From Cryobacterium aureum (GTDB taxonomy: Bacteria > Actinomycetota > Actinomycetes > Actinomycetales > Microbacteriaceae): a stretch of DNA of 64,000 bases. How positions within the stretch are numbered: the first letter of the stretch is position 1; every line of letters starts with the position of its first letter. The position numbers and the translations under genes are program-made. Positions 29,507 to 59,653 of this stretch are shown one piece after another. Under the pieces are notes generated by a model. The model had not been told where the DNA came from, ran no database searches, and saw only the letters and a program-made list of their open reading frames with translations. The DNA lies in contig NZ_PPTG01000025.1 of NCBI RefSeq assembly GCF_002954245.1, positions 124,001-188,000 on the forward strand, written 5' to 3'.

Positions 29507-29582
29507 GGGGCTATGGCGCAGTTGGTAGCGCGTCTCGTTCGCAATGAGAAGGTCAGGAGTTCGAATCTCCTTAGCTCCACCA
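29507..29582 (+). tRNA. tRNA-Ala(CGC); left attachment site
   Basis: A complete cloverleaf: acceptor GGGGCTA/TAGCTCC (one G-T), D-arm GCGCAGTTGGTAGCGC, anticodon stem TCTCG/TGAGA with loop TTCGCAA (anticodon CGC), T-arm GGAGTTCGAATCTCC, and encoded CCA at 29580-29582. Positions 29532-29581 recur at 45113-45162, so the tRNA 3' half is the attachment core of a genomic island and the integration kept this copy functional. Confidence 0.96.
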
Positions 29583-29590
29583 CACTAGAT

Positions 29591-29629
29591 ACCCGGTCAG
29601 AACCATTTTCGGTTCGACCGGGTATTTTT
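29591..29629 (+). terminator. Terminator after tRNA-Ala (island-borne)
   Basis: ACCCGGTC (29591-29598) pairs with GACCGGGT (29616-29623), extended inside by GAACC/GGTTC, followed by ATTTTT. It lies on the island side of the junction and replaces the original tRNA terminator, which now sits beyond the right repeat. Confidence 0.85.
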
Positions 29630-30174
29630 CGGTTTTCGGCGGCGTGCACAATTTCTTGCACAACCTGCCTACATTTGGCCGCTTTTCAGTCTCTCGGGGT
29701 CTGTCTCAATCCGACAAAGCCGACAAAGCCGACGAAGAGGCCGAGGTGAAGAGTGACCCCGAGGTCGTGTACGGCGTCGAATGGAGTATGAAGAAGTACA
29801 AGACGATCTACTCGGTGCCTGTCAAGGCGAATATGGTGCAGCTTGGTTTCCTGAGCGTCAATAATGCGAAGGTGGGTGCCATCGGCGGCCCGCAGCGTGC
29901 TGCGGTCCTCTGGACGTCGAGTTGACGAGAAGGCAGTACGGCGCAACGAACGCTTGACGAAGCGTTATTCAGACAACTCGGCTGAGCACGCCGCGGACTC
30001 GGCCCGCCAGCTCCACGAGCTGTCTGCAGAATTGGCTCGGAGCGATTGACCCACGTTCGAGCGATAACGCATTCGTTACAAAAAACGAGCGATGACACCG
30101 TTTAAGTCACGCCGATTCTAGATCAGGCCCGCCGCCGCGCCCGAAGCGACCAGATGGCCGGCGTGAATACTGTT
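29630..30174. other. Island left end, no supported gene
   Basis: A 545-bp stretch after the tRNA terminator. A 93-codon frame (29644-29925) has no ribosome-binding site and no recognisable family; part of it is a short repeat (GACAAAGCC, GACAAAGCC, GACGAAGAG). A 10-bp motif CGAGCGATRA occurs at 30057 and 30087. No integrase is detectable. I see nothing I would call a gene. Confidence 0.5.
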
Positions 30175-31527
30175 TCAGTCCTCCAGCGCTTCGCCCTGTT
30201 TCTCGGGGAGCCCGAAAGCGCCGAGGGCCGCAACCACAAAGAACACGGCGAAGACCGTGAATAGGAGGCCGGTCCCGCCCGTTTCGCGCAGCATCGGTAC
30301 GGCCAGCGGCGCCAGGATTGCGGCGATCCGCCCGATGCCGGCCGCCCATCCGGCTCCGGTGGCTCGAATGCGGGTGGGGTAGAGCTCGGGGGTCACGGCA
30401 TACAGCGCTCCCCACGCGCCGAGGTTGAAGAAGGAGAGCAGCATGCCAGCACCGATCACCTGGGTGGCGTCGCCGGCGACCCCGAAAAGCGCCGCCGAGA
30501 GTGCCGAGCCGGTGAGGAACACTGCGAGGGTCCGGCGCCGCCCCCACCGTTCGATCAGGTACGCCGAGGCAGCATATCCCGGCAGTTGGGCCACGGTGAT
30601 AATGAGCGTGTACGCGAAGGAGCGAACAAGGGAGAGTCCCGACGCGACCAGGATGGTCGGAAGCCAGATAAAGGCACCATAGTAGGAGAAGTTCACGCAG
30701 AACCAGACCAGCCACAACGCACCGGTTCGGCGACGCAGGCCGCGCGACCACAGCGCGGTGACGCGTGGCTTGGCGGCGGGAATAGTCGGCCCTGGACTCG
30801 TCGCCGCAGGCAGTGCCAAATCATCGGGTGCAGCGGTGACTCCGGCGGACTTTTCGAAGCGTCGGACGGTCGACTCCGCGTCCTGGAAGCGGTTGCGCGA
30901 TTCGAGGAAGCGAACCGACTCCGGCAGCCGCAGCCGCACGACCACCGCGTACAGGGCCGGAGCCGCTCCAATAGCCAGCGCCCAGCGCCAACCGTCGGCC
31001 GAAGACGGTACAACGAGAAACCCGATCACGGCGGAAAGGGTCCAGCCGATGGCCCAGAAGGATTCGAGGAAGACGATGATGCGGCCACGAATTCGTGGCG
31101 GCGCGAATTCGCTCACGAGCGTCGAGGCGACCGGAAGCTCACCGCCGAGACCGAGCCCAACGACGAATCGCCAGGCGATGAGTACGGCCACGGAACCGGA
31201 CAATGCCGACGCTCCCGTCGCGAGTCCGTAGACGAGCAGGGTGAGTGCGAAAACCTGGCGTCGACCGATGCGGTCTGCCAGCAAACCGCCGAGGACGGCG
31301 CCAACGGCCATGCCGATGAACCCGGCGGACGCGATCCAGGACAGTTCTGCGTCTGTGGTATTCCATTGCACCGCCAATTGGGCAAGGACGAAGGAGATGA
31401 GTCCAATGTCCATCGCATCCAGGGCCCAGCCCAGGCCGGAACCCACGAGCACGCTGCGGTGCTCCCGGGTAAACGGAAGCGCGTCCAATCGCTCAGATCG
31501 ACTGGAACGTGCGCGAACTTCAGCCAT
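30175..31527 (-). CDS. MFS transporter (aromatic acid/NiaP-like)
   Basis: A 450-residue major-facilitator permease with 12 predicted segments. The N-terminal family motifs are LGWALDAMDIGLISFVLAQL (charged Asp in TM1) and GGLLADRIGRRQVFALTLLV (motif A between TM2 and TM3). LIERWGRRRTLAVFLTGSAL is the duplicate motif between TM8 and TM9. This branch includes AAHS aromatic-acid:H+ symporters and NiaP-like nicotinate carriers. ATG 31527 is preferred over TTG 31530; it overlaps the stop of the upstream frame (TGATG). It is in the same island as the dioxygenase operon and could be a second uptake route for the aromatic substrate; this is inference. Confidence 0.85.
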   Translation of the reverse strand: MAEVRARSSRSERLDALPFTREHRSVLVGSGLGWALDAMDIGLISFVLAQLAVQWNTTDAELSWIASAGFIGMAVGAVLGGLLADRIGRRQVFALTLLVYGLATGASALSGSVAVLIAWRFVVGLGLGGELPVASTLVSEFAPPRIRGRIIVFLESFWAIGWTLSAVIGFLVVPSSADGWRWALAIGAAPALYAVVVRLRLPESVRFLESRNRFQDAESTVRRFEKSAGVTAAPDDLALPAATSPGPTIPAAKPRVTALWSRGLRRRTGALWLVWFCVNFSYYGAFIWLPTILVASGLSLVRSFAYTLIITVAQLPGYAASAYLIERWGRRRTLAVFLTGSALSAALFGVAGDATQVIGAGMLLSFFNLGAWGALYAVTPELYPTRIRATGAGWAAGIGRIAAILAPLAVPMLRETGGTGLLFTVFAVFFVVAALGAFGLPEKQGEALED

Positions 31528-31856
31528 CAAGTGTCCACTTCAGCGTTGGCGGCAATACGGCAAACTGAGGGTAAAGCGTCCACCGGATAACCGAACTCTA
31601 TTGCACGCCCCTCCCTCGCCTGCCGCGCGGCGGCGTTACGCCCTCGCGGGGCGGTGCGGGCCAGGTAGATTTCCCCAGGGATCGCACCGAACTGGGTGTG
31701 TCCACCCAGCACCCAGATCTGGAAAACAAGGTTCGTCGCGCCGCAACGCGGGCGCGTCGAATCCGTGAGCACGAAGTCAGGTTCATCGCTCTGGTCACCA
31801 TCGGATGCCGCCACCGAAAGTCCCATCGCCCTGGCCTTCCTCAACTCGACGGCCAC
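31527..31856 (-). CDS. Hypothetical protein coupled to the MFS gene
   Basis: A 109-residue frame starting at GTG 31856 behind a good GAGGGAGA ribosome-binding site. Its TGA overlaps the MFS start codon, so coupling is possible. The sequence (VAVELRKARAMGLSVAASDG … IWVLGGHTQFGAIPGEIYLA …) matches no family I know. It lies beside resolvase remnants and may be a chance or chimeric frame. Confidence 0.35.
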   Translation of the reverse strand: MAVELRKARAMGLSVAASDGDQSDEPDFVLTDSTRPRCGATNLVFQIWVLGGHTQFGAIPGEIYLARTAPRGRNAAARQAREGRAIEFGYPVDALPSVCRIAANAEVDT

Positions 31857-31895
31857 GAATTCTCCCTCTCCATCCGAAAGTAACCCACGAATGTG

Positions 31896-32137
31896 TCAGG
31901 CGAGCATGTTCTGCGTCGATCGACCCAGCCGATCCGGGGTCGTGATCACGAGGGTGTCGCTGTCTTGGAGTGCGTCGAGTGCACGGTCGAACTGGGGCGT
32001 GATGCTCGAGCACCGGAGATGCCGTGGTCGACGTAGAGGTCGTCACGCCGGACGCCAGCGGCGAGGATGTCGATCTGTTGGTGGTCGGTGGACTGCTGCC
32101 GCGTGGATACACGCGCGTCGCCGATCAGTTTCGTCAT
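31896..32137 (-). pseudogene. Serine resolvase remnant
   Basis: The N-terminus is a textbook resolvase/invertase start: MTKLIGDARVSTRQQSTDHQ, then LAAGVRRDDLYVDHGISGAR, with catalytic Ser10-type serine in RVSTRQQ. After SGARASRP a frameshift occurs. The other frame continues with FDRALDALQDSDTLVITT and PDRLGRSTQNMLA and then stops at 31896. The E-helix and DNA-binding domain are missing. It belongs to the Tn3-type resolvase/invertase family. Dead copy; a res-like repeat region precedes it. Confidence 0.82.
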
Positions 32138-32149
32138 TTCTGCTCTTGG

Positions 32150-32215
32150 GGTGTCTCATAACCAACGGCGAGTACCACAGTTATAAGCATGCGGTTATGC
32201 GACGTAGTTATGAAA
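32150..32215. repeat. Possible res site of the resolvase
   Basis: Four copies of the half-site GTTATR occur within 60 bp: inverted CATAAC (32157-32162), GTTATA (near 32180), GGTTATG (32193-32199) and AGTTATGA (32207-32214). They lie directly upstream of the resolvase start, where res sites are expected. Confidence 0.4.
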
Positions 32216-32902
32216 ATCGGCGCGCCGCAAGATTCCGGTGACTCTGAGGAAGCTCAGGTGGCGGACCGGTGACGTGGACCGAAAGAAGGTCGCCGAAGCC
32301 CCTGAGCCACGCGGGCGTCGAGCGTGGCTCGGGGGAACTGGAATACGACAGTTCAGAGCGTCGCGCAAGGTTCGCCGCGAGTCTTGAAGGCAAGGGAGAT
32401 CAGAAGACGATCAACGCGCGAATCCTCGCCGACGGTGAAAATGCCAAGCACCCGCGCAAAGCAGTCATGTCCCAGTCGGGGAAGACCGCCAGGCCACACC
32501 GCAGTAACAAGAACGGTGTGCAACAGCGGGACCACGGCGGCCTTTCCCGTTGACAACTCAGCTCAGCTGCCCCGCGTCGAGCAGGACCTCGGGCTGTTCT
32601 GGCGAGGCGACTCTGCTGCCACAAGGTCATGCCGGTAACTCTTGACCACCACACCCGGCCAGGGAAGAGGCCGCCTCGTGTTAAGAAAGTCGCGGTCACC
32701 GTCACCGTGCCGACCTACCCGGCCAAGATCAACGCGATGACTGCGGTCCGGACATTCGTCCGCGACCATTGCTGCTCGTCACGATGATGCCGCAGATATC
32801 GACAACCCCATCGTCACCGACCGCGACGCGCAACCCCCGCCTCATCGTCACCCACGGATCCGGCTTAGATTGCCCTGGTGGGTCCCAAATACCTTGACAT
32901 AA
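32216..32902. other. Degenerate stretch without supported genes
   Basis: About 690 bp between the resolvase remnant and the IclR gene. Short frames exist on both strands (for example 32269-32553 and 32353-32556) but none has a ribosome-binding site or a recognisable family. It may be eroded mobile-element sequence. Confidence 0.4.
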
Positions 32903-33742
32903 TCACACCAGCATGCCATGAAGTTTTTCCGCGGCGGCTTGGAGCAGGGCTCCGAGCTCGGCACGCAGTTTGTCTGACATCCGGTGGGCCGGCACCGAAA
33001 CATTCATGCCGAAGATCTCGCCGCTGGGGCTGGATACCGCGACGGCGACCGACATGACACCGTCTTCGCTCTCCTCTCGGCTGGTCGCGTAGCCGGTGTC
33101 CCGGATGGATTCCAGGGCTTGCTCCAACGCCGTTCGGGATGTAATTGAGCCTTGAGTGAGACCGGTGAGCTCTTCTTGGGGGTACAGGGTCCGCAGTTCA
33201 TCTGTGGTGAGACGGCTCATCATTGCTTTTCCTGTGGCAGTACAGTTGGCGGGCAGCGTGAGGCCCTGGCGGGAACCGACGCGTACGGCCCGTGAGCTTT
33301 CGATGGCATCAATGAAGCAGGTCTGGGCCCCTTCCAGCTTGGCGAAGTGAACCGTTTCGCCTGTTTCATTTGACAGTTGCTCTAATATGGGGCGAGTCAA
33401 GGATCGAATATCGACTTGACGTCTGATGGCGAAGGCAATGGAGCTTAGCGCCTGACCGGGCTCATAGGCTCGGGTGGACGGATTTTGCCGGACAAATCCG
33501 CGGTAAAGAAGCATCCCCATGAGCCGGTGGGCCGTGGACGACGCCACGCCGAGGTAGTTACTAGCGTCAGTTAGTCTGATACTTGGTCGCGTCTCGAATA
33601 ACAACAACAGGCGCAAGGCACTGTCAACAGATTCGATGCGATATTGCGGCGGCGGACCGTACCTGGACTGGGGTTCTGGCTCTACAGTGCTGATGCCACT
33701 TATCCTATCCCTTGGCCCAGTCTCGCGAGCTCGTGCCGCCAA
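32903..33742 (-). CDS. IclR-family regulator of the dioxygenase operon (PhtR-like)
   Basis: A regulator of up to 279 residues. The winged-helix domain contains YRIESVDSALRLLLLFETRP and RLTDASNYLGVASSTAHRLM, near residues 35-85. The IclR effector domain follows from about 110 (ETVHFAKLEGAQTCFIDAIE; ANCTATGKAMMSRLTTDELR). It is last in the catabolic operon and overlaps the aldolase gene by 43 bp if the TTG at 33742 is the start. No ribosome-binding site is visible there, so the true start is uncertain. The position after the decarboxylase gene corresponds to phtR in the Arthrobacter order. It probably binds the inverted repeats near 38357 and 43562. Confidence 0.82.
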   Translation of the reverse strand: MAARARETGPRDRISGISTVEPEPQSRYGPPPQYRIESVDSALRLLLLFETRPSIRLTDASNYLGVASSTAHRLMGMLLYRGFVRQNPSTRAYEPGQALSSIAFAIRRQVDIRSLTRPILEQLSNETGETVHFAKLEGAQTCFIDAIESSRAVRVGSRQGLTLPANCTATGKAMMSRLTTDELRTLYPQEELTGLTQGSITSRTALEQALESIRDTGYATSREESEDGVMSVAVAVSSPSGEIFGMNVSVPAHRMSDKLRAELGALLQAAAEKLHGMLV

Positions 33743-34452
33743 GCCGTAGCCGTATTAAAGGATCCGCCCAAGTCGGGCAGTTCCACCATGTCGCTTTCGG
33801 GAAGGTCGACGAGTTCGCCTCCGGCGGCACGTATCTGCAGTGAAAGCCGAGCCAAGTTGTCGACGCTGATGGCTTGGAGCACTGCCTGCTCGACTGTCGT
33901 TGCTGTGCTGGTAAGTCCATGCCCGCGAAGTACTAGGACGGGGCGTTCGCCCATGGCCGTGACCATTTCCTTGGCCAGCCGGCGGTTTCGGACCAATACT
34001 CCACGAGGGTAGACGGGCACTCCACCGGCGGCCAGGCGTGTACCGGGAATGTCGAAAGCTCCAACAATAGGTCGTATCGACAGTCCGGCGAGATCTGCCG
34101 CAACAACGTGAGGGGGATGGGCGTGGACGACGGCCCTCACATCAAGGCGAGAACGAAGGATTTCGGTATGGAGGGGCAGCTCATTGGGTACTGTGTACCC
34201 GCCGTCGAGCTCGCCATCGGCGGCGGGATTACCGTCGAGGTCGACCAGACGGATGTCTTCGGCCTCGGTGAAGGCAAGGCCGCGCTCCCGGTGCCCACGG
34301 CAGCGGATCAGCAGTGCATTCTTTTCGACCAGCAGACTGATGTGCCCTAGAACGCCGTCGGCCAAGCCCCGGTTTGCCAATACTCTGCAGGCCATCGCCA
34401 CGGCCTCCCTGCTGGCACCGAATGACACGGTATCGAGAGTCTGCCGCATCAC
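33700..34452 (-). CDS. phtC: Class II aldolase/adducin-family protein, probable dihydroxyphthalate decarboxylase
   Basis: A 250-residue class II aldolase-fold protein. Metal-binding HAH is in RAVVHAHPPHVVAADLAG near 108, a second His in RGHGLTSTATTVEQ near 180, and the acid/base Glu in ELPLHTEIL. In Gram-positive phthalate pathways the 3,4-dihydroxyphthalate decarboxylase PhtC belongs to this family, and here the gene directly follows the ferredoxin reductase (ATGA overlap at 34449-34452) as in phtAdC. The predicted reaction is loss of CO2 to give protocatechuate. Confident about family; the substrate is inferred from gene order. Confidence 0.75.
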   Translation of the reverse strand: MMRQTLDTVSFGASREAVAMACRVLANRGLADGVLGHISLLVEKNALLIRCRGHRERGLAFTEAEDIRLVDLDGNPAADGELDGGYTVPNELPLHTEILRSRLDVRAVVHAHPPHVVAADLAGLSIRPIVGAFDIPGTRLAAGGVPVYPRGVLVRNRRLAKEMVTAMGERPVLVLRGHGLTSTATTVEQAVLQAISVDNLARLSLQIRAAGGELVDLPESDMVELPDLGGSFNTATAWRHELARLGQGIG

Positions 34453-35681
34453 GGTACCGGCATCGCTTGTGAGGTCAGTTGAGTCTCAAGCGCGTCGCGC
34501 AGCTCGGCGACAGTAATGCCCGTTCCCATTCCGCGGCGGCAGGCGATGAGCGCCTTCGGCCAGTTGACTGTCGCTGCCCCATGCAGGTTGATCCCGTCTT
34601 TCGTGTAAAGGGCCGCGAACCTGCCGTGGGTCTCGGGGTGCCCGATCACGATGTGCTTCGCATTGTTTCCCACCCGACCGACAATCTGGATTTTCCAGTT
34701 GTACTGGTCACTCCAGACATACTCGACGGGACTATATTCACGTGGCTCGGCCGGATGGGTGATGTTGTATGCGACGCAGATGGCTTGCTCAACCGCATTG
34801 GTCCAATGCTCGATTCGGATGTCTTCACCGTGCCGCGGGTGATGCCAGCGTGCCACATCTCCGACGGCGTAGATGGATGGTGCGTGCACGGCGCGGCAAT
34901 ATTTGTCCAGCACGACCCCGTTGTCTACGAGCAACCCGGAGGACGAAAGCCAGGCGTCATTGGGAACGGCGCCGATGCCAACGAGGACTGTTGCTGCCGA
35001 CAGAACGCGGCCGTCGGTCAGGTGCACGCTGAAGGCGCCCTGGTCGCCGTCGATTGCGTCGACGCCGGTACCGAAAATCGTCGTGACGCCGTTATCTCGA
35101 TGCAGAGCGCCGAACCAGTGGCCGATCTCGGGATTGAAGATGCGGCTCATAGGAATCGTCTGCGGATCGATGACCGTGACTGTGAGGCCCAACGACCGCG
35201 CGGTTGCTGCCGCCTCGGCGCCAATGAAACCGGCGCCGATGACGACCAGGTCACCGCCGCCGAGGAGGCTAGCGCGCAGCCGGTGGGCGTCGTCTAGGGA
35301 GCGAAGCACGTGGATGCCCGCACGCTCGCCCCAGGGAGACGGGCGCGCGGCCGCTCCGGTCGCGATGACCAGGTTGTCGAAGTGAATGGGCTCGTGACCC
35401 TCTAATTCGAGGAGACCGTTGTTGATGTCGACACCGGTCGCGGTGTGCCCAAGCACTAACTGGATTCGCGCTTCATCGGCCTCTTCCTGCGTGAGGAGGC
35501 AGATAGACGATGCCTGTGCTGTGCCGGCCAGAACGGACTTGGACAGTGGCGGCTTGTCATAGGGAAGCTCTGATTCTGCACCAACGAGAACGATGTCGCC
35601 TTGGTATCCCTCCAGCCGAAGAGACTGTGCGGTGCGCACCCCGCCGATGGACGAGCCCACGATCACGGTGGTCGAGCTCAT
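34449..35681 (-). CDS. phtAd: Dioxygenase ferredoxin reductase (FAD)
   Basis: A 410-residue FAD- and NAD(P)H-dependent reductase passing electrons to the ferredoxin. The FAD-binding part reads MSSTTVIVGSSIGGVRTAQS (GxSxGG variant), followed by ELPYDKPPLSKSVLAG. The NAD-binding Rossmann motif is DLVVIGAGFIGAEAAATARS, near 145. The second FAD motif is IYAVGDVARWHHPRHGEDIR. It overlaps the ferredoxin gene (35678-35681) and the aldolase gene by ATGA-type junctions, so all three are tightly coupled. Subfamily as in benzene and biphenyl dioxygenase reductases. Confidence 0.85.
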   Translation of the reverse strand: MSSTTVIVGSSIGGVRTAQSLRLEGYQGDIVLVGAESELPYDKPPLSKSVLAGTAQASSICLLTQEEADEARIQLVLGHTATGVDINNGLLELEGHEPIHFDNLVIATGAAARPSPWGERAGIHVLRSLDDAHRLRASLLGGGDLVVIGAGFIGAEAAATARSLGLTVTVIDPQTIPMSRIFNPEIGHWFGALHRDNGVTTIFGTGVDAIDGDQGAFSVHLTDGRVLSAATVLVGIGAVPNDAWLSSSGLLVDNGVVLDKYCRAVHAPSIYAVGDVARWHHPRHGEDIRIEHWTNAVEQAICVAYNITHPAEPREYSPVEYVWSDQYNWKIQIVGRVGNNAKHIVIGHPETHGRFAALYTKDGINLHGAATVNWPKALIACRRGMGTGITVAELRDALETQLTSQAMPVP

Positions 35682-35872
35682 TCGCTCACCGTGAGGGCCG
35701 AAACCGGGCAGCTGCGGGCCGCTTCGGTGACACGGGATCGCTCCGACTCCGGAAACTCTCTCTTGATCATGACCACGTTGCCATCATCGTCGAGGTCGAA
35801 GTAATCCGGTGCGGCCATGACGCAGTTGGCATAGCCCTGACAGGCCTTTAGATCAGCGGTTACAACCGGCAT
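35678..35872 (-). CDS. phtAc: [3Fe-4S]/[4Fe-4S]-type ferredoxin of the dioxygenase
   Basis: A 64-residue ferredoxin beginning MPVVTADLKACQGYANCVMA. Cluster cysteines are C-x5-C (CQGYANC) and the distal CP (SCPVSALTVSE). The middle Cys position of a full [4Fe-4S] set is not filled, which suggests [3Fe-4S]. This type, rather than a Rieske ferredoxin, serves phthalate 3,4-dioxygenases of Gram-positive bacteria. ATG 35872 has GAGGAG at good spacing; TTG 35878 is less likely. The stop overlaps the reductase start. Confidence 0.85.
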   Translation of the reverse strand: MPVVTADLKACQGYANCVMAAPDYFDLDDDGNVVMIKREFPESERSRVTEAARSCPVSALTVSE

Positions 35873-35947
35873 GGTCAAGCTCCTCTGCTTTAATTATTCA
35901 TGTGTTGTTGGGTGCTACGGCAACGTCGTCAGCCGACGTTTCGACGG

Positions 35948-36253
35948 TTAGGCGTCCTCGGTGACCAGTGGTCCGAAGGGATGGCCGATCATGGCCGAGA
36001 AAGTAGCCGGCGACTGCCAGGTCAGGGCTTCGAGTTCGAACGGACAGAGCGCCACCCATTGGCCCGAACGCGGGGAGTGGATCATGAGCCGTGAACCATT
36101 GCGGGTCTCGACACGGCTGACCCGTATCTCGGAAAACTCGTTACCAAGAACGATCGGGGTACCCGTGGTGTGTGCCTCGAGCTGGGCTCGTTCTTCGCTC
36201 GCGTGACGCGCCGTCTGACGGTCTTCTGCCTCACCTTCCCATTCGAGCTTCAC
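35948..36253 (-). CDS. Small unknown protein in the dioxygenase operon
   Basis: A 101-residue protein whose GTG start (36253) overlaps the stop of the beta subunit gene (GTGA), indicating translational coupling. It begins VKLEWEGEAEDRQTARHASE. The middle has beta-strand-like parts (TPIVLGNEFSEIRVSRVETR, RLMIHSPRSGQWVALCPFEL) and the end reads PATFSAMIGHPFGPLVTEDA. No motif recognised and no cysteine pair. It is an extra gene relative to the core order Ab-Ac. It could aid assembly or stability of the oxygenase; this is a guess. Confidence 0.6.
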   Translation of the reverse strand: MKLEWEGEAEDRQTARHASEERAQLEAHTTGTPIVLGNEFSEIRVSRVETRNGSRLMIHSPRSGQWVALCPFELEALTWQSPATFSAMIGHPFGPLVTEDA

Positions 36254-36855
36254 AGGAATATCGCTAAGTTCTGCATGCGAATCACGGACTCGTCGACCAT
36301 GATCGTTCGGCGAGCAAGTTCCCAACCCGTTGCAGTTCGCCGCAGTAGATCTTCACGGCCGGCCGAAATGGTAGCGGCCTCGTTGATGTCCCCGCGACTT
36401 CTGAACAGCAGTACGGCGGAGTCCACGACGATTTCGTCTGGATTCTTGGTCCGAAAAGTGCGGACATTGGTGATGTAGTGGCGCAGGCGTGAGGGCGGGT
36501 CTTCGGTCCAGGCGTGTTCGGTCGCGAAGCGGGCCACGCGGCGACTGAGCGAGTACATGTTTTCGTCGAGATGGGCCATTCCCGGAGCAGTCGTATAACC
36601 GGCGCCGAGGGCGGTGGTGACGCGCACCGGCATCAGATAGTGAATATCTGATGCGAGTGTCGATAGCCAGGCCTCGTAATCCTGGGCATCCAGAAGGTAG
36701 GACTCGTCGACCAGCCACCGGTGGGCCTGGAGGTGCAGCTCGTCATTGAACGCCAGAGATTCACCCGTTCGCTGGGTGCGGGGGGCGTGGGCTCCCAAGG
36801 GAGACTGCTCCGATAATGTGCGGTCGGTGCGCACGTTTGCCGTTTCTACACTCAT
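36250..36855 (-). CDS. phtAb: Ring-hydroxylating dioxygenase beta subunit
   Basis: A 201-residue small subunit (SnoaL/NTF2-like fold) of an aromatic-ring dioxygenase. Family segments are FNDELHLQAHRWLVDESYLL and DAQDYEAWLSTLASDIHYLM. Further on are RLRHYITNVRTFRTKNPDEI and SAVLLFRSRGDINEAATISA. It forms the structural part of an alpha3beta3 hexamer. It starts 2 nt after the alpha-subunit stop codon and shares 4 bp with the next small gene. No catalytic residues are expected in this subunit. Confidence 0.88.
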   Translation of the reverse strand: MSVETANVRTDRTLSEQSPLGAHAPRTQRTGESLAFNDELHLQAHRWLVDESYLLDAQDYEAWLSTLASDIHYLMPVRVTTALGAGYTTAPGMAHLDENMYSLSRRVARFATEHAWTEDPPSRLRHYITNVRTFRTKNPDEIVVDSAVLLFRSRGDINEAATISAGREDLLRRTATGWELARRTIMVDESVIRMQNLAIFL

Positions 36856-36857
36856 GG

Positions 36858-38321
36858 CTAGGCGCCCAGCAATACGGTCTCGGCGGCTTCGTCGATGGGG
36901 GCCTCTGCTGCGACACAGGATGAAGCGCTGCCACTCTTGGACGTCTTCCTGACGGCGGTCATTCCGACCTTCAGCTGTGCCGCGGCCTCAATTGGGCGTT
37001 CCAGGTGGTCGGCCCAGCGAGTCAGCAGCTCCCGCTGGTTGTATTCGCTGTAGCCCACGCGAGTGGATCCCGGGCCCGAATACTGCTCGTTCGTCAGCGG
37101 CTCCACAACGTTCCCACCGTCTTCCAAAAGGCCCATCCGGCCGTTGAGGAGAAGCCGACGAGCCATGGAACCGGCGGCCGTGTTGGTCAGCGATACCCAA
37201 TTTTCAACGTCATCCTGCTCGAACATGCCGCCACTGCCGAAGCACATGAGATAAGCCTTATAGGAGAGTTCCTTGTATTCGTCGGTCGCGTTTTTGTCTA
37301 CAGCGAACCAGGACAGGACCTCGGTCTCATTTTCGCTGATCGGCTGCCACTGACGGATAGAGATGAAGGGGTGCACGTCGTCGGAGTCTTCCTCCACCCG
37401 CGGCCAGTTGTGGACGAAGCTCATGTTGGGGAACAGGGACGCTGCGGATATCATGAAGCCGTCCTGGCCGATGACATCCAGTTGCGCCTGGCTCCACTGC
37501 CCCTTCATCCTTTCGATCATGTCGTCCGGGTAGCCGACATAACGCAGACGGTCTTCGAGGCTTCCCTCGGGAAGCTTGTAGGTCGTGCCGCCACCGTTGC
37601 CGGCCCAATACGTGGTGCCATCCTTGCGTTTTTCCGCCTTGGGCTCGCGGAACAGACCGATTTCGACCACGGAGGCGTGCGTCTGAGGGGTGTGATACAT
37701 GTCACCGGCAAAGTTTTCGGCACCAATTTTCCAGTTGGCTTTGATGCGCCAACGCTGCGGTCCCCGCAGTTCAATGCCGCCCGCGCTCTGCTTCGTGTAG
37801 TAATCCAAGTAGAACTTGAAATCGCCGAGGAAGTCCTCGAGTGGCTCCGCATTCGGATCCAGGCTGATGAAGATGAGCCCGTTGTACACACCAAGGGACG
37901 GTGCGGGGAGAAGAGTCTGGCCCTTTTTCTTGAAGCCCTCTTCGCCGCCGAACGCTTCCTCGTGGAACGGCAGGCCGATGAGTCGGCCATCATTTCGGTA
38001 GGACCAGCCGTGGTAGGGGCAGCGGAAGTGTGATGCGTTGCCCATTTCCGCCCGGCAGACCTGCATGCCACGGTGCAGGCACATGTTGAACAAAGCTCGG
38101 ACCTCGCCTTTCTCGTCGCGCGAAATAATAAAGGAGTCCTCGAGGACGTGGCGGACGACATAGTCACCGGCCTGCGGCACTTCGGACTCATGCGCGACAA
38201 ACAACCAACTCCGACTAAAAAGACGCTCTTTCTCAAGATCGAACAGTTCTTTGTCGTTGTAGATGTGTGCCGGAATCATGCCCTGGCGTACGTCGTTCAG
38301 AACACCACTCTGGTCTGTCAT
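36858..38321 (-). CDS. phtAa: Ring-hydroxylating dioxygenase alpha subunit (phthalate 3,4-dioxygenase-like)
   Basis: A 487-residue catalytic subunit. The Rieske [2Fe-2S] site is CLHRGMQVCRAEMG … FRCPYHGWSYR (CxH-x17-CxxH), near 82-105. The mononuclear iron site is AENFAGDMYHTPQTH near 215 (Asp and two His). The C-terminal extension is larger than in naphthalene dioxygenase. ATG 38321 has AAGGAG 6 nt upstream. It probably adds O2 to the ring of a phthalate-like acid to give a cis-dihydrodiol. Gene order B-Aa-Ab-(x)-Ac-Ad-C-R supports phthalate; close paralogues attack PAHs, so the substrate needs testing. Confidence 0.82.
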   Translation of the reverse strand: MTDQSGVLNDVRQGMIPAHIYNDKELFDLEKERLFSRSWLFVAHESEVPQAGDYVVRHVLEDSFIISRDEKGEVRALFNMCLHRGMQVCRAEMGNASHFRCPYHGWSYRNDGRLIGLPFHEEAFGGEEGFKKKGQTLLPAPSLGVYNGLIFISLDPNAEPLEDFLGDFKFYLDYYTKQSAGGIELRGPQRWRIKANWKIGAENFAGDMYHTPQTHASVVEIGLFREPKAEKRKDGTTYWAGNGGGTTYKLPEGSLEDRLRYVGYPDDMIERMKGQWSQAQLDVIGQDGFMISAASLFPNMSFVHNWPRVEEDSDDVHPFISIRQWQPISENETEVLSWFAVDKNATDEYKELSYKAYLMCFGSGGMFEQDDVENWVSLTNTAAGSMARRLLLNGRMGLLEDGGNVVEPLTNEQYSGPGSTRVGYSEYNQRELLTRWADHLERPIEAAAQLKVGMTAVRKTSKSGSASSCVAAEAPIDEAAETVLLGA

Positions 38322-38356
38322 GGGAACTCCTTGTTTGATGGGGCGTGGGACTTTTA

Positions 38357-38387
38357 TTCTGCTAGTCAGAGATTAGTTCTGTACTAA
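38357..38387. promoter_or_regulatory. Inverted repeats upstream of the alpha-subunit gene (likely IclR sites)
   Basis: Two 15-bp palindromes lie side by side in the 165-bp gap before the dioxygenase gene: TTCTG-N5-CAGAG (38357-38371) and TTAGT-N5-ACTAA (38373-38387). The first matches TTCTG-N5-CAGAA before the ABC operon (43562-43576), which points to one shared regulator, presumably the operon's IclR protein. An internal promoter here is likely. Confidence 0.5.
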
Positions 38388-38486
38388 AGAGAATGTCGCA
38401 CTACTGATGGTTCGTCAAGCACCGGTTGCCCGGCTCTTTCCGGCTGGCCCACTGAGTGCGGGTGAGCGCCGAGCCGGTACGCAGAT

Positions 38487-39335
38487 TCAGTGCCCGTTTT
38501 CCGGGTTGTCTGAGTCGCGAGCGGCCGCTTCCCCTCGATCCAACTCGTGCAGGGCCTGCATGTCGGTGGCACTGAGCGCGAAATCGAAGACCGCGAGGTT
38601 TTCGGCCAAATACAGGGGGTTGGATGACTGGGGGATCGGTATGAGGCCCTGTTGGACGTGCCAACGGAGCAGGACCTGCGCGGGAGTTCTCTGCACCCGT
38701 TCCGCGATCGCTTTGACGATGGGCATGTCCCGCAGGCCGGAGGCTCGGCCGATCGGGCTCCAGGATTCGGTCAGGATTCCCAGCTCATCGTGGACCGCCC
38801 GCGCTTCACCGCGGGCCAGGTCAACACTCAATTGGATTTGATTGACATCGGGGACCACGCCGGTGGCATCAATAATTTTTTCCAAATGACTCGGCTTGAA
38901 ATTGGAGACGCCGATTGCTTTAACCCGACCCTCCTCTAGGAGCTTAACCAGGCCTTTCCATGCCTCGACGTAGCTGCCCTGTGCGGGCACGGGCCAGTGG
39001 CACAGGAACAGGTCGAGGTAGTCGACGTTGAGCGCGCGCAGGCTCTCGTCGTAGGCGCGCTGCACGCCATCGATGCTGTGGGATTCCTTGTTGAATTTGC
39101 TGGAAACAAAAAGATCATCCCGGTCGATGTCCGAGGATCTGATTGCTCGTCCGACCGCTGCTTCGTTCCGATACTGGAACGCGGTATCCAGCAATCGGTA
39201 CCCCACCCGAAGTGCATAACCGACAGCAGCTTCACATTCTTTGTCCAGAAGCGGCCACGTGCCCAGACCCAACAACGGAATGCTGTGCCCATGGAGCATC
39301 TTTCGTCGACGCGCGACTCCGGTTTCGCTGATCAT
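38487..39335 (-). CDS. Aldo/keto reductase in the position of the dihydrodiol dehydrogenase
   Basis: A 282-residue AKR (2,5-diketogluconate-reductase-like) with the full catalytic tetrad D50, Y55 ([11 protein letters not shown]), K80 (FVSSKFNKE) and H113 (LFLCHWPVP). The NADPH-binding end reads [20 protein letters not shown]. Its ATG overlaps the stop of the cysteine hydrolase gene. In the Arthrobacter order the first gene, phtB, encodes the cis-dihydrodiol dehydrogenase, and this gene stands in that position. Whether an AKR does that oxidation here, or reduces another intermediate, cannot be settled from sequence. Confidence 0.82.
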
Positions 39336-40003
39336 GTTTGCTCCGGACGTCGTACGTCCTCGAGATAGGTGAGGGTGTCGTCCAGAGTGACAACGTCACC
39401 GTATTTGCTATCGATGTCGAACAGGCTGGCTAGATGGGGCAGCTCGGCTCGGTCACCGACGCCTTCCTCAACAACGACGGTGTGGAAACCATATGAGCAG
39501 GCATCAACGGCCGTGGCGCGGATGCACCCGCTGGTGGTGCATCCGACCATGATCAGCGTGTCCACGCCCTTCGATATCAGACGCGTCGCCAAGTCCGTGC
39601 TAAAGAAGCAGGATGCGTATTTCTTGACCAGGAGCATTTCATTGCTCTGGCGCTGCAGCCTTGCGTCGAGTTCGACCCATTCGCTACCCTCCACGAGCCA
39701 GCTGTTGGACGGTATTTTGCGGATCCACTTACCGGCGTCCTGAAGATTGGAGTCATAAGCGACGGTAGAGAAAATTATCGGGATAGCTGCTGCCCGGGCA
39801 CTCGCCAGTAATTTCATCGTGGCTTCTAACTGCCGATCGAGATCCCCGGCTAGGGGCGATCGTGCATCGGTGAAACCACGGATGAAGTCGACGATAAGAA
39901 GAGCCGGACGTGTGCCGAAGCCGGTGCGGCTGCCCAGACCCTTTTGCCTGAATTCGGACCGGAGCTTCTCATACGCATCAACGATGATGGTGCTGGATGA
40001 CAT
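39332..40003 (-). CDS. Isochorismatase-like cysteine hydrolase (N-carbamoylsarcosine amidase-like)
   Basis: A 223-residue hydrolase with the Asp-Lys-Cys triad: D39 in [13 protein letters not shown], the Lys in [11 protein letters not shown], and the Cys in [20 protein letters not shown]. The cis-peptide region precedes the Cys as usual. Closest family by pattern is N-carbamoylsarcosine amidohydrolase, which splits C-N bonds of amides or carbamates. ATG 40003 has AAAGGA 5 nt upstream. It sits between the importer and the reductase, so it may release the aromatic acid from an amide such as phthalamate; this is speculation from context. Confidence 0.8.
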
Positions 40004-40022
40004 GATTTCCTTTCTCGAAGGA

Positions 40023-40039
40023 TCCGTTCCATGAACGGA
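40023..40039. promoter_or_regulatory. 17-bp inverted repeat between permease and hydrolase genes
   Basis: TCCGTT (40023-40028), N5, AACGGA (40034-40039) lies in the 55-bp gap before the hydrolase gene. It is spaced like the other palindromes of the operon but with different bases. It may be an operator or an mRNA-processing hairpin. Confidence 0.35.
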
Positions 40040-40058
40040 CACTCGACCGCAGCGCGGC

Positions 40059-40859
40059 TTAGGTGGTTTTACGCAAATGTCCCTCGATAGCCCAGAGCAC
40101 CAGATTGCCAACGAGCGCGATTAGGGTGAGCAACGTGATGAGGCCATACATCATGGGCAAATCCAGCTGCCCGTAGGCGCGCAGCGCCAGTAGTCCTAGG
40201 CCGGCGCGCGCGGCAAAGAACTCCGCGATGATGACGTTGATGAAGGCGATGCTGAATCCGATTCGGATACCGACCATCAGTGATGGGGCCATCGCCGGTA
40301 TATATATTTTCGTCACGGTCTGCAGCGGGTTCAGGCTGAGGGACCGTGCCAGCTTCGGCAGGAGTGGATTGATGGCGCGGACACCGGCTGCGGTGGAAAC
40401 CATGATCGGGAATACGGCCGCGAGAGCAGCCATGGCGGCCTGGGCTCCTACTCCCACGCCGAAAATCTGCAGCAAGATCGGAAAGAAGATGACGCGTGGC
40501 GTGGCGAACGCGCCCGCCACGATCGGATCGAACACGGCTCCCAGAAATTTGCTCCTTCCGATGTAGTAGCCAAGAGGAAAGCCCACAACGGCGGCAATCA
40601 GAAAACCAATGACTACCGCGTTCAGCGTGCTCCACAGGTGCCTATAGATCGACCCGTCCGCAAAGGCCTCCGCCAGCGCCAGGAAGGATGCGACGGGGGA
40701 GGAAACCAGATCGCTGATGGCCGACAAGAAACCCCAGATGAGGAAGACAGCCACGAGGACGACAGCGCGCCACACGTTGTCGATGAGGGCGGAGGATTTC
40801 TTCCCTCCCGACCGGTCGCTGTTCTTGGGCACGGCAAGAATTGTGACATCGGTGCTCAC
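40059..40859 (-). CDS. ABC transporter permease (SsuC/TauC type)
   Basis: A 266-residue inner-membrane permease with about six segments. The EAA-loop region is [20 protein letters not shown], followed by [20 protein letters not shown] and [20 protein letters not shown]. The GTG start at 40859 overlaps the stop of the preceding permease (GTGA); in-frame starts further upstream would lie inside that gene. With the neighbouring permease, ATPase and binding protein it forms a nitrate/sulfonate/taurine-class importer, likely for the aromatic substrate of the operon. Confidence 0.85.
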
Positions 40860-41656
40860 AACATGTCCCTTCTGATGCGCTTCTCGAGCCACGTGAGCAC
40901 GCCGTTGACGACAACGCTGACGACAACGACGACGACAATGTAAGCCCACATGTCCGATACATTGAGTTCCCGGTAATACAGGCCGGCGCGAAAGCCGATT
41001 CCTTGTGCCGCCAGAATGAATTCCATGGCGATGGTGCCGATTACGGCATAGATGAAACCGAGCCGGATACCGGGGAAGACCAGCGGTGTGGCGGCAGGAA
41101 ATAATACCTTCAGGTAATACTGTGCTGGAGAGGCATTCACGGAGTTTGCGAGCTTGTGAAGAATGGGCTTGATTGAGTTCAGCGCGATCATCGTGGTCAG
41201 CGCGATCGGAATCAGAGACATCGTTGCCGCGATCAAAATAATTGGCCCCGCGTTGAGTCCCATCACGGCCAGAAGTATGGGATAGAACAACAGCGTGGGC
41301 ATGGCGTAGCCCGTGACGATGAATGGCTCCAGGATTCGCCCGGCAGCCGGGATACGCCACAAGAACACGCCCAGTGGAATTCCCACGGCGACGCCGATCG
41401 CGAACGCGAAAAGAATCGTGGTCAGGGTTCGAGTCGCATCCTCCGCAAACTCGCTGGTCGGAACGATGGATGCGAGCCGGGTCAGAATTTCAGATGGCGG
41501 TACCATCAACGTGGGCACAATGAGCCCCGTCCTGGTGGCCGCTTCGAGGACGACGAGGAGAGCCACGATGATGAACCATTGGACGAAAGTCGGCCTACGC
41601 CAAACCGAGCCCGCACCGAGATGCTTCGTTTTGACCGCAATTTGTGGTGTGCTCAT
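40856..41656 (-). CDS. ABC transporter permease (SsuC/TauC type)
   Basis: A 266-residue permease paired with the next one as a heterodimer. The EAA region reads AATMSLIPIALTTMIALNSI, then KPILHKLANSVNASPAQYYL and PAATPLVFPGIRLGFIYAVI. ATG 41656 overlaps the ATPase stop codon (ATGA). About six membrane segments are visible, the first at WFIIVALLVVLEAATRTGLI. Co-translated with ATPase and partner permease. Confidence 0.85.
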   Translation of the reverse strand: MSTPQIAVKTKHLGAGSVWRRPTFVQWFIIVALLVVLEAATRTGLIVPTLMVPPSEILTRLASIVPTSEFAEDATRTLTTILFAFAIGVAVGIPLGVFLWRIPAAGRILEPFIVTGYAMPTLLFYPILLAVMGLNAGPIILIAATMSLIPIALTTMIALNSIKPILHKLANSVNASPAQYYLKVLFPAATPLVFPGIRLGFIYAVIGTIAMEFILAAQGIGFRAGLYYRELNVSDMWAYIVVVVVVSVVVNGVLTWLEKRIRRDML

Positions 41657-42480
41657 GCAAGCAGCGCCCCAGGGCCCAGTGTTTTCTCGGCTTCGACCTT
41701 CACTAGGTTCCATAGGTGCTCTTCCAGTTCCCTGAAGCGTGGAAGTGCGTGAGTACCTTCCGGCCGGGGACGTGGCAGATCAATATTGACGATCTCTTTG
41801 ACGATTGACGGTCGAGCCGACATGACCCACACCTCATCCGAGAGGTAAACGGCCTCCTGAATATCATGGGTAATGAAAAGCACCCGATTTTGGGTCCTCT
41901 CCCAGATGCGCAAGAGCTCCCGACCAATAAATTGGCGAGTTTGCTGGTCAAGCGCACCGAACGGTTCGTCCATGAGCAGAACTCGAGGCTCGACGGCCAG
42001 CGCTCGCGCAATAGCCACACGCTGCTTCATCCCCCCCGACAGCTGCCCGGGGCGGTGATCTTCAAATCCTCGCAACCCTACAAGATCGATCATGCGGCGT
42101 GCGCGGTCGTTGCGGTCGACTTTGGAAACGCCTTGGATCTCCAGGCCAAAGGCGACGTTGTCGAGGACGCTGCGCCAATGCAGAGTGGAGTCTTCCTGAA
42201 ACACCATTGCGGTGTCCCGGCGGGGACCGGTGACGAGCTCGCCGTCAATGCTGACGGAGCCCTGCGTGGGTTTCAGAATCCCGCCGACCATGTCTAACAG
42301 AGTGCTCTTCCCACAGCCGCTCGGACCTATTACGGAGACGAATTTGCCATCGGGAATTGTCCCCGAAACGTTGGCCACCGCCTGGGTAGCCCCGGCATCG
42401 GTTTGAAAAGTCATACCGATGCGGTCGAAAACAACATTGTTGTTCTGTTCGGTCGTACTCGTGCCCAGTACGTCGCTCAT
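41653..42480 (-). CDS. ABC transporter ATPase (SsuB/TauB type)
   Basis: A 275-residue ATP-binding subunit: Walker A VIGPSGCGKSTLLDMVGG near 50-66, Q-loop VFQEDSTLHW, signature LSGGMKQRVAIARAL near 145, Walker B VLLMDEPFGALD near 165, and switch His in LFITHDIQEAVYLSDEV. It belongs to the nitrate/sulfonate/taurine importer class. It overlaps the binding-protein gene and the first permease by 4 bp each. Energises uptake of the operon's substrate. Confidence 0.9.
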   Translation of the reverse strand: MSDVLGTSTTEQNNNVVFDRIGMTFQTDAGATQAVANVSGTIPDGKFVSVIGPSGCGKSTLLDMVGGILKPTQGSVSIDGELVTGPRRDTAMVFQEDSTLHWRSVLDNVAFGLEIQGVSKVDRNDRARRMIDLVGLRGFEDHRPGQLSGGMKQRVAIARALAVEPRVLLMDEPFGALDQQTRQFIGRELLRIWERTQNRVLFITHDIQEAVYLSDEVWVMSARPSIVKEIVNIDLPRPRPEGTHALPRFRELEEHLWNLVKVEAEKTLGPGALLA

Positions 42481-43478
42481 GACAGGACGTTTTTCAGGAC
42501 GATGGCGTCCATATCGGGCTCCCGAGTTAGTTGGCCCTGGTCGAGACCCGCAGCGACAACGGACTGCAACTGTGCATCCGTGAAATCGAGACTGTAAAAA
42601 CTTTGGGAATTCTTCAAGGCCTCAAAGGCGACTTCCGGTTCGTAATCGATCGCCTTGGCATAAATGGCTGCGGCCTTCTCTAGATCGGTCGTGATGAGGC
42701 CAATGCCCTTCTTGAGTGCCCTACCCCATCCTTTGAGAACCTCTGCGTTCTGGTCGATGAAGGCACCGGTAGCGCACAGGCAGGTATCTGACCAGTCGGT
42801 GACATAGTCGCGCGAGCGCCAGATGATCTTCGACTCACTCTCACTGGCAATTTTCTCTGACAAGGGTGAGGCCGTCCAAGCTACATCGACAACTCCCTGA
42901 GACAAGACAGTCCAGGAATCGCTGGCCGACCCGACGCTGACTAGTTCTACGTCTTTGCCGGGGATGATTCCGGCTTCCCGCAGCGTTCGCTCCGCAAAGT
43001 AGGTCGAGTTCGAACCGGGAGTACTGACGGCTACCTTCTTGCCGCGAACATCCTCAATGGATGTAATGGACGAACCGGAGGGTGCGATGAAATCTACCGA
43101 CGGGGAGGTGTAGACGTTGCCAAATATTTTGACGTCCATACCCTTCTCGGCCGCGATAAAGACCGGAATTGTGGAGGACGTGCCAAAACCGATACCGGAG
43201 TCAATCCCGCGCACCGTATCGAGGCCGCCAGGGAATTGGATGTGCTCAAGGGAGAGCCCCTCCTCTTCGTAATATCCGGCCGCTTGTGCGATGAAAAACG
43301 GGGCCGAATGAATTAGGCTCGCCAGCCCGGTGACCGCAACGTCACCGGAAAATCCGGCCTTCCCCGTGCTCCCGCTCGGCGCGCACGATGTTGTGGCCCC
43401 CAAGAGAGCCAGACCTCCCGCAGCGGCAGACAGCCTCATAAATCCTCGCCGGTCCATACGGCTTAATTTAAATTCCAT
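42477..43478 (-). CDS. Tat-type lipoprotein substrate-binding protein (NMT1/SsuA-like)
   Basis: A 333-residue solute-binding protein and first gene of the catabolic operon. The signal has a twin-arginine motif (SRMDRRGFMRLSAAAG) and a lipobox (LGATTSC), so it is probably exported folded and lipid-anchored. The mature fold belongs to the NMT1/SsuA class (HSAPFFIAQAAGYYEEEGLS near the ligand cleft; KKVAVSTPGSNSTYFAERTL). ATG 43478 has GAGGGAG upstream; an ATG at 43496 with AAGGGG is an alternative giving 339 residues. Ligand presumably the aromatic acid or a derivative. Confidence 0.85.
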   Translation of the reverse strand: MEFKLSRMDRRGFMRLSAAAGGLALLGATTSCAPSGSTGKAGFSGDVAVTGLASLIHSAPFFIAQAAGYYEEEGLSLEHIQFPGGLDTVRGIDSGIGFGTSSTIPVFIAAEKGMDVKIFGNVYTSPSVDFIAPSGSSITSIEDVRGKKVAVSTPGSNSTYFAERTLREAGIIPGKDVELVSVGSASDSWTVLSQGVVDVAWTASPLSEKIASESESKIIWRSRDYVTDWSDTCLCATGAFIDQNAEVLKGWGRALKKGIGLITTDLEKAAAIYAKAIDYEPEVAFEALKNSQSFYSLDFTDAQLQSVVAAGLDQGQLTREPDMDAIVLKNVLS

Positions 43479-43533
43479 CAAGTTCTCCCTCGCCATTGAG
43501 TGCCCCTTATGGGCGTTTGTCTGAATAAATCAC

Positions 43534-43576: not shown

Positions 43577-43795
43577 ATAACCGCGCGACCAGACGGGTAA
43601 ATTGATCGTAGGAGCACGTGCGTCGCGCACGTCCGAGTTGATCGACGTCGTGGGATGTGGTCGCTGCAGCGGGAAGCCATGCACGTGGCGCTGGCTCTAC
43701 CCGGCCATAACGTTAGTGACGTGAGGCCTTGAAAAGGGAGGACCTCCGGTGCTTGGTGGAGATGTTCAACGTCTCACTTCACAACAAAGGTCCTC

Positions 43796-44470
43796 ATGTC
43801 ACACATAAAAGCGAGATTGAACGTTCGCGGAAGGACCCTGCTGGTCGAAAGGGTTCTCGGCGGTCGACCGGCGGCGCACGTCGCCAAGAAACTCGGCATC
43901 TCCCGGCAGTGCGCCTACCGGTGTGTGCGTCGCTATCGAGCCGAGGGTGAAGCCGGTCTCAGCGACCGGTCGTCGCGGCCACACTCGATGCCATCCCCAA
44001 CCAGCCCGGGACGCGAAGCGGTCGGTCTGGAGGCCCGCATCCACTTATGCACCGGCCCGGCACGGATCGCCGCCGACACCGGCGTTCCCGCACGCACGGT
44101 CTCCCGGGTGCTGGCACGGCATCACGTCCCGGCGCTCTAGGAATGCGACCCGCCGACCGGCGAAAAGATCCGAGCTACCCGTGCCACAGCGACCCGGTAT
44201 AAACGCGCCCGCCCCGGCAATGTGGTGCACATCGACGTCAAGAAGCTCGGACGCATCCCCGACGGCGGCAGCTGGCGAGCCCAGGCCGGCCCAACTCGCA
44301 CCAACCACACCGCCGGTCACATTCGGGTCGGCTACGACTACGTGCACGCCGTCATCGACGACCGCACCCGTCTCGCTTATGCCGAGGTCCACCCCGACGA
44401 AAACGGCGCCACCGCCGCCGGCGTCCTCCTCCGCGCAGCCGCGTTCTTCGCCAGCTGCGGCATTCCCAAG
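43796..44470 (+). pseudogene. IS481-family transposase remnant with amber codon
   Basis: The frame starts MSHIKARLNVRGRTLLVERV with the IS481 helix-turn-helix (AAHVAKKLGISRQCAYRCVR; EAGLSDRSSRPH). It is interrupted by TAG at 44138-44140 and resumes in the same frame into the DDE domain (NVVHIDVKKLGRIPDGGSWR; DYVHAVIDDRTRLAYAEVHP). It breaks off after FFASCGIPK, before the last catalytic residue, where another element's end is joined. Not functional. Ends of the IS were not identified. Confidence 0.82.
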
Positions 44471-44471
44471 A

Positions 44472-44600
44472 CACGACGAATGGGAAGCCGGCGAACGCCG
44501 CTACTTCTCCGAAGCCTCGATGCTTGAGCTGACTACCATGAACAACCCAATCGAGGTCATCGACGAGGCGGTGATCCTTCCAGAACTTGCCGCCGCCTGA
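44472..44600 (+). pseudogene. C-terminal fragment of an IS256/mutator-like transposase
   Basis: Fused to the broken IS481 gene in a different frame are 42 codons: HDEWEAGERRYFSEASMLEL, then a Thr/Asn-rich linker and an acidic end. The HDEW…RRY…SE pattern resembles the C-termini of actinobacterial mutator-family transposases. The assignment rests on a short motif only. Confidence 0.4.
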
Positions 44601-44689
44601 ACTAAACCACCTGACCCGCACGGTGACGATGAGTTACACCACCCAGCGGGACGTGACCGCGCCGGTTTGACTTCGCGGTGAGACCGCAA

Positions 44690-44898
44690 TTAGTCAGCCG
44701 AGACGTAGCCCACATCTTCGTGCAGTGCAATGTACGCGGCGATGTGTGAGTCGGTGTATCGGATTGCGCGGCCGAAGCGTATGCAGTTCAGCGAGGCTGA
44801 ACGAGTTGCACGTCGAATTGTCTGTTCGCTGAGCCCGAGCTTCGTAGCGACTTCTGCGGGGGGTACGCGAGGCGGTTGGTTTTAGTGTTGGTGTCCAT
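44690..44898 (-). pseudogene. Excisionase-like HTH gene with frameshift
   Basis: ATG 44898 reads MDTNTKTNRLAYPP and then shifts at a run of six C (plus-strand G, near 44860-44865). In the next frame an HTH_17/Xis-type domain continues: PAEVATKLGLSEQTIRRATR, LNCIRFGRAIRYTDSHIAAY, ending EDVGYVSAD. Seven C instead of six would restore one 69-residue protein. It lies 215 bp from the right att repeat, where excisionases of actinobacterial integrative elements usually are. Confidence 0.65.
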
Positions 44899-45112
44899 AG
44901 GGGGTTCTATACGGTAACCCTGAAATCGGCTGGAAGCTTGCTGGCGCGTGATCTCTGAGGAAGCCAGTGCGGTAAAGGAATCCTCGTCAGAATGACGCTA
45001 ATGCACACTTTGAACCGCACAATTCTTACACAATCTCCAGTGCTTTCAAGGCCTGTCGAGGTTTATCAGATTCAATGTTTTACAAGGATCGAACGGCATT
45101 CAGCCACCATCT

Positions 45113-45162
45113 GTCTCGTTCGCAATGAGAAGGTCAGGAGGTCGAATCTCCTTAGCTCCACC
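45113..45162 (+). repeat. Right attachment site: partial tRNA-Ala copy
   Basis: Fifty bases match tRNA-Ala positions 29532-29581 with one difference (G at 45141 for T at 29560, in the T-arm). The copy lacks the acceptor and D-arms, so it is not a tRNA. The original tRNA terminator follows it directly. Confidence 0.9.
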
Positions 45163-45165
45163 CAG

Positions 45166-59641: not shown

Positions 59642-59653
59642 GCGGGCCGAAGC

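Follow-up and report, generated by a model that had tools for sequence, protein, structure and literature searches.

A stretch of 64,000 nucleotides from Cryobacterium aureum (assembly GCF_002954245.1, NZ_PPTG01000025.1, positions 124,001-188,000 of the forward strand; hereafter, the window) contains an operon of the phthalate (pht) type lying between two copies of the 3' part of a tRNA-Ala(CGC) gene. Very probably, this island is an integrative element that inserted into the tRNA gene, carries a pht operon that would feed the protocatechuate (pca) pathway of the host, and is now stranded. Integrase-type site-specific recombination would have brought the element into the 3' part of tRNA-Ala(CGC), so that the left end kept a complete tRNA and the right end received a partial copy of 50 bp. 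The element now appears to hold an operon for the uptake of phthalate, the core of common plasticisers, and for its conversion to protocatechuate, the substrate of a host pathway encoded ~21 kb beyond the right end. Later, the integrase would have been lost and an excisionase-like gene broken, amid remnants of an IS481 insertion sequence (IS), a resolvase and a defence gene.

Attachment repeats and empty sites at tRNA-Ala(CGC)

A sequence-only reading of this DNA had reported that 50 bp of the tRNA-Ala(CGC) 3' part recur, with one mismatch, at 45113-45162. This was borne out: the stretches 29532-29581 and 45113-45162 are equal at 49 of 50 positions with an offset of 15,581 bp, and enclose ~15.5 kb of lower-GC DNA. 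The single mismatch (T to G) sits in the right copy, while all 76 bases of the intact tRNA (29507-29582) are the same as in the tRNA of several relatives. By simple arithmetic, 64 kb would be expected to contain such a 50-mer, with no more than one mismatch, ~1e-23 times by chance. Only two same-strand pairs in the window share an exact 22-mer; the second is local, at 19081, with its members separated by 84 bp. In the genome as a whole (4.31 Mb, 52 contigs, 98.5% complete, with both copies on one 277-kb contig), three more matches to the tRNA region were found; at 77-81% identity, these are presumably other tRNA genes. The same reading had proposed that the original terminator now lies behind the right copy and a new one behind the intact tRNA. 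Hairpins followed by T runs are present at both places (Table 1), and the relatives agree: the terminator at 45165-45194 resembles those directly 3' of their tRNA, whereas the tRNA of the window is followed by a different one.

The search for an empty site in relatives, recommended by the same reading, was likewise productive. The tRNA region is matched in all 57 genomes of the genus (own included), 29 of which, as relatives, were compared over loci of up to ~3.2 kb, with 27 further genomes outside this comparison. In eight of the 29, the right flank of the window starts no more than 10 bp from the tRNA end, as expected of an empty site. Across the family, a 39-base core pattern (up to three mismatches) was present in 65 of 398 genomes, and two copies were found in just this genome and one other, G050.

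Among the 13 relatives without a right-flank match, G050 and G013 were traced into longer DNA. G050 has its second core copy 33.3 kb from tRNA-Ala, and this copy agrees with the 3' end of the tRNA at 43 of 44 bp. The insertion (contig C11, 254911-288250; L133, L134) uses the same tRNA-Ala target as the island, has an integrase adjoining the tRNA, and its long open reading frames (ORFs) look phage-like by eye. As parent of the island it was rejected, blastn showing no DNA match except the tRNA, and its integrase having only distant relatives among the integrase loci of this genome. In G013 (contig C26, ~113000-129000; L135, L136), ~16 kb of other genes separate tRNA-Ala from the shared right flank. 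No core copy of at least 30/50 besides the tRNA itself was detected there, and this insertion was dismissed as an island with a readable repeat.

The phthalate operon and its pca neighbourhood

Families of the long ORFs of the island were assigned from Pfam, with small ORFs covered in part, and curated names were given according to NCBIfam cut-offs. The genes phtB-Aa-Ab-Ac-Ad-C and an IclR-type regulator are collinear with plasmid pRE1 of Arthrobacter keyseri 12B, and the gene-by-gene order matches the pRE1 pht operon from importer to regulator, at 72-88% protein identity. The pRE1 genes are named phtB, phtAa-Ad, phtC and an IclR-type phtR in PMC12728591, and PMC10434107 gives the route as phthalate to the dihydrodiol, to 3,4-dihydroxyphthalate and to protocatechuate. 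Besides PhtC, the dioxygenase beta subunit is the sole scanned island protein over a curated cut-off, and the subfamily concerned takes its name from 3-phenylpropionate dioxygenase beta. Position and identity suggest a PhtB role for the aldo/keto reductase, and the real start of the amidohydrolase gene (39332-40111) is probably further inside. Taken together, the operon is predicted to import phthalate and should convert it to protocatechuate.

At 39332-39335, the amidohydrolase and aldo/keto reductase genes overlap where the plasmids have a gene for a major facilitator superfamily (MFS) transporter; the Mycolicibacterium llatzerense locus (L060) likewise leaves too little space for it. The MFS protein encoded outside the operon, at 30175-31530, has no blastp match to the MFS protein of pRE1 or of Arthrobacter sp. 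FB24.

Table 1. Features of the island and its boundaries, in window coordinates (att, attachment site; percentages to pRE1 and FB24 are protein identities)
Feature	Position	Strand	Evidence
tRNA-Ala(CGC), intact, with the left att copy as its 3' part	29507..29582	+	ARAGORN
Left att copy (attL core), 50 bp	29532..29581	+	49/50 identical to 45113-45162
Island-borne terminator after tRNA	29587..29627	+	hairpin -26.9 kcal/mol and T run
Remnant of the gene neighbouring a SIR2-type defence candidate (PDC-S65) in G050, with adjacent DNA	29719..29994	+	two pieces with ~92% DNA identity to contig C10 of G050
MFS transporter, outside pht operon	30175..31530	-	PF00083, PF07690
Decayed stretch with resolvase/recombinase remnant at 31898-32237	31531..32902	.	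plasmid stretches, up to 80-82% DNA identity; broken frames
IclR-family regulator (phtR)	32903..33742	-	PF01614, PF09339; 78% to pRE1
3,4-dihydroxyphthalate decarboxylase (phtC)	33700..34452	-	NF053537, 397.6 bits, cut-off 200; 77% to pRE1
Dioxygenase ferredoxin reductase (phtAd)	34449..35681	-	PF07992, PF14759; 74% to pRE1
Ferredoxin (phtAc), 66 aa	35678..35878	-	PF13459; 73% to pRE1
Small operon gene, no assigned function	35948..36256	-	72% to pRE1 hypothetical protein; no Pfam match
Dioxygenase beta subunit (phtAb)	36250..36855	-	PF00866; 85% to pRE1
Phthalate 3,4-dioxygenase alpha subunit (phtAa)	36858..38321	-	PF00355, PF00848; 86% to pRE1
Aldo/keto reductase, in the place of phtB (dihydrodiol dehydrogenase)	38487..39335	-	PF00248; 74% to pRE1
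Isochorismatase-family amidohydrolase	39332..40111	-	PF00857; 79% to pRE1 amidohydrolase
ABC importer permease	40059..40919	-	PF00528; 88% to pRE1
ABC importer permease	40856..41713	-	PF00528; 80% to pRE1
ABC importer ATPase	41653..42480	-	PF00005; 84% to pRE1
ABC importer substrate-binding protein	42477..43496	-	PF09084; 81% to shorter pRE1 protein, 78% to FB24
IS481-family transposase remnant, broken	~43687..44658	+	PF13011; IS481 plasmid matches; 3' end also on own contig C42
Excisionase-like helix-turn-helix gene, split in two frames	44693..44898	-	C-terminal piece 44693-44881 matches HTH_17, E 2.9e-7
Right att copy (attR core), 50 bp	45113..45162	+	second-best match of the genome to the tRNA region
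Native-type tRNA terminator, now behind right copy	45165..45194	+	hairpin -23.5 kcal/mol and T run

The island differs from its surroundings in composition, with a GC content of 60.0% against 65.6% and 65.4% in the flanks, and a mean GC at third codon positions of 0.69 in 13 island genes versus 0.81 in 13 hand-picked flank genes. Its distribution is sporadic. A close relative of the alpha subunit occurs in only one of the 57 genus genomes, its own; two others carry one at 36-39% identity, elsewhere. Among species genomes (best 80 of 339 loci), identity reaches 88% at best, in Pseudarthrobacter, while 942 records of a plasmid collection match, 22 of them at 80-90% identity. The 80 loci contain four tRNA predictions, none with a second 3' end; their flanks of at most 10 kb, often ended by the contig, make this a weak test for tRNA-bounded pht loci elsewhere.

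Protocatechuate 3,4-dioxygenase genes (pcaHG) are located at contig positions 190614-191917, ~21 kb beyond the right repeat. Beside them lie a pobA-like 4-hydroxybenzoate 3-monooxygenase gene (over the subfamily cut-off, below the equivalog cut-off), a pcaB-like gene (321 bits, below the cut-off of 356) and a pcaDC fusion over cut-off, and the right flank of the island opens with genes for an IclR regulator and a two-subunit 3-oxoacid CoA-transferase, the latter named at subfamily level. The protocatechuate formed by the island enzymes would enter this host pathway. PcaH was over cut-off in nine of 14 relatives searched; in seven of the nine its gene is on the contig of the tRNA, in the same direction and 6.4-31 kb past it (the G050 insertion subtracted), whereas in G018 and G025 it is at another place. 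Since pcaH follows the tRNA in these seven, the pca neighbourhood is most likely older than the island. An element targeting tRNA-Ala lands near pca whatever its cargo, and this closeness need not be meaningful. A bolder proposal, rather improbable at present, is that tRNA-Ala(CGC) beside pca serves the genus as a docking site, plugging an upstream aromatic pathway next to a downstream one, and that the phthalate island is a catabolic module on a stripped, formerly defence-carrying integrative element of a kind hardly described in Gram-positives. Between the island and the pca operon, at 58520-60664, there is also a second Rieske-type oxygenase, weakly matching 4beta-methylsterol monooxygenase, with a PaaE-like reductase behind it.

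Decay of the element and competing histories

Several broken genes frame the operon. The remnant at 29719-29994 is 85% identical in protein to residues 257-323 of a 364-aa protein, whose gene is intact on contig C10 of G050, where it adjoins a gene matching PADLOC PDC-S65 (587.8 bits) and, by a tRNA-Phe, an integrase over cut-off. The order there (L180, 10444-15141) is integrase at tRNA-Phe, SIR2-type gene (the PDC-S65 candidate) and the 364-aa partner, which has no assigned family; the latter two genes may form a defence unit carried by an integrative element. The 34.5 kb read there contained no second tRNA-Phe 3' end that could mark the other boundary of that element. The partner gene or a piece of it occurs in five of 398 family genomes, own included. 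In searches with the outer ends of the island, ten of 299 family genomes match its left end, beyond its own genome and G050 over just ~27-43 bases, and 22 of 299 match its right end, those listed, the window aside, all in the first 64 bases at the end of the IS remnant.

Resolvase and IS remnants inside the island, an excisionase-like gene frameshifted 215 bp from the right end and a missing integrase had all been noted in the sequence-only reading, and each was recovered here. Both remnants (31898-32237 and ~43687-44658) have broken frames and resemble Cryobacterium and Clavibacter plasmid DNA, most of the listed plasmid matches to the former being annotated as recombinase family protein. The excisionase-like gene, on the minus strand, lies in two frames, one piece matching HTH_17; it starts at 44898, with 214 bp between this codon and the right repeat. 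Because the integrase appears to have been lost and this gene is broken, the island is most likely fixed. No conjugation family was recognised by Pfam among the long island ORFs (small ORFs only partly scanned), and the island is therefore not filed as an integrative and conjugative element (ICE). Elsewhere in the window, a tRNA-Arg(CCT) (9211-9285) has beside it an integrase remnant (9472-9756, minus strand; PF00589, 27.0 bits against a cut-off of 27.1), with no exact 22-mer repeat of this tRNA end in the window.

A tRNA-borne integrative island usually has an integrase gene within it, which is lost in decayed islands. Here, a terminal repeat, an empty site, a sporadic distribution and a foreign composition are all found, while none of the 17 PF00589 matches of the genome lies between the repeats. 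Because the island has no integrase, we can only infer the recombinase, and this is one of several points weighing against insertion of a pht element at the tRNA. In the loci compared, 13 of the 29 relatives have no right-flank match, and eight more show a gap of 105-401 bp between the tRNA and that match (105-175 bp in five, 204-401 bp in three). Among the eight with the right flank closest to the tRNA, the match in G018 breaks after ~45 bp and picks up after a further insert, and that in G026 is only ~220 bp long. The junction in relatives is also 6-9 bp longer than the right end in the window, for which small-scale drift is an unproven explanation. Finally, one MFS gene, placed between the amidohydrolase and the aldo/keto reductase on pRE1 and FB24, is absent from the island.

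Two further findings had been named in advance as telling against insertion, and both exist if taken literally. G050, which gave no alpha-subunit match at the cut-off, nevertheless has both repeats; what it carries is a different, 33-kb prophage-like insertion, and the case for insertion stands, this double core showing the tRNA in use as an attachment site. The same gene block without the repeat is found outside the genus, both on plasmids and on contigs of other kinds. This does not defeat insertion either; it shows that the operon has additional vehicles.

The strongest rival concerns the history of the island. A defence-gene element or defective prophage may have occupied tRNA-Ala first and received the pht operon later by a transposon or IS, in which case the att repeats would be those of the earlier occupant. 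Other pht loci are homologous in DNA only over ~32903-43451 (an extent drawn from 16 of the 80 loci), and outside this core the 80 loci give two short matches, both within the IS remnant. Such an extent of homology is consistent with an operon set into a skeleton of different origin. The core is flanked by the resolvase and IS481 remnants, and the outermost DNA carries the defence-partner remnant on the left and the excisionase-like gene on the right. However, no intact transposon ends or target duplication were identified around the operon, although no systematic search was made, and IS and resolvase remnants can also arrive afterwards. Such a nested origin is given somewhat less than an even chance; it is compatible with a stranded island bounded by att sites, so both estimates can hold together.

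Continued mobility, with an integrase elsewhere in the genome excising the island in trans, is unlikely. Both repeats are readable, and 15 of the 17 PF00589 matches in the genome are over cut-off. Nevertheless, the best-scoring match in these loci to the Ala-site integrase of G050 reaches 31% identity over 276 residues, three integrases lie ~1 kb from other tRNAs (tRNA-Gln, tRNA-Pro and tRNA-Met), the excisionase-like gene is no longer intact and one base of the right core deviates; even so, another enzyme is conceivable. Least credible of all is an origin without any integrase, in which a duplication left a stray tRNA fragment as the right copy, with ordinary variable DNA between: the site is variable, as the ~16 kb of other DNA without a second core of at least 30/50 in G013 illustrates, but synteny with relatives halts at the left core and restarts directly past the right core, in the sole other two-copy genome of the 65 the insertion has an integrase adjoining the tRNA, and the island has an excisionase-like gene close to its right end.

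Comparison with known systems

Titles and abstract openings gave no evident report of a phthalate island in a tRNA gene of the host's family, most subscription papers being outside this search. According to PMC9960961, Gram-positive bacteria rarely carry degradative ICEs. Therefore, a clear case with a named cargo helps to trace the spread of plasticiser degradation. The interest of the island lies in its actinobacterial setting, its named cargo, the pca genes nearby and a second insertion that targets the same tRNA. Both junctions and the empty sites document how a pht operon found on 22 plasmid records at 80-90% identity came to a chromosome contig, near the pathway that would use its product.

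The pht gene order is the same on pRE1 and on plasmid 2 of FB24. These operons are plasmid-borne, whereas that of the island is chromosomal, lies between tRNA repeats and does without their MFS gene. Protocatechuate 4,5-dioxygenase genes are annotated near the FB24 operon; the island lacks equivalents of these, and its host instead has 3,4-cleavage pca genes. The insertion in G050 shares the tRNA-Ala target, but it is 33.3 kb long, includes an integrase and, the tRNA aside, shows no blastn match to island DNA. Degradative ICEs of the ICEclc family combine catabolic cargo with att repeats at the 3' end of tRNA-Gly, as PMC9960961 describes. The island resembles them in its catabolic cargo and in repeats at a tRNA 3' end; unlike them, it has no integrase, and no conjugation gene was recognised among the island genes scanned. 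Overall, a tRNA island that bears a phthalate operon and has become stranded is nothing unusual as a type, and this one exemplifies that known type well, on clean evidence.

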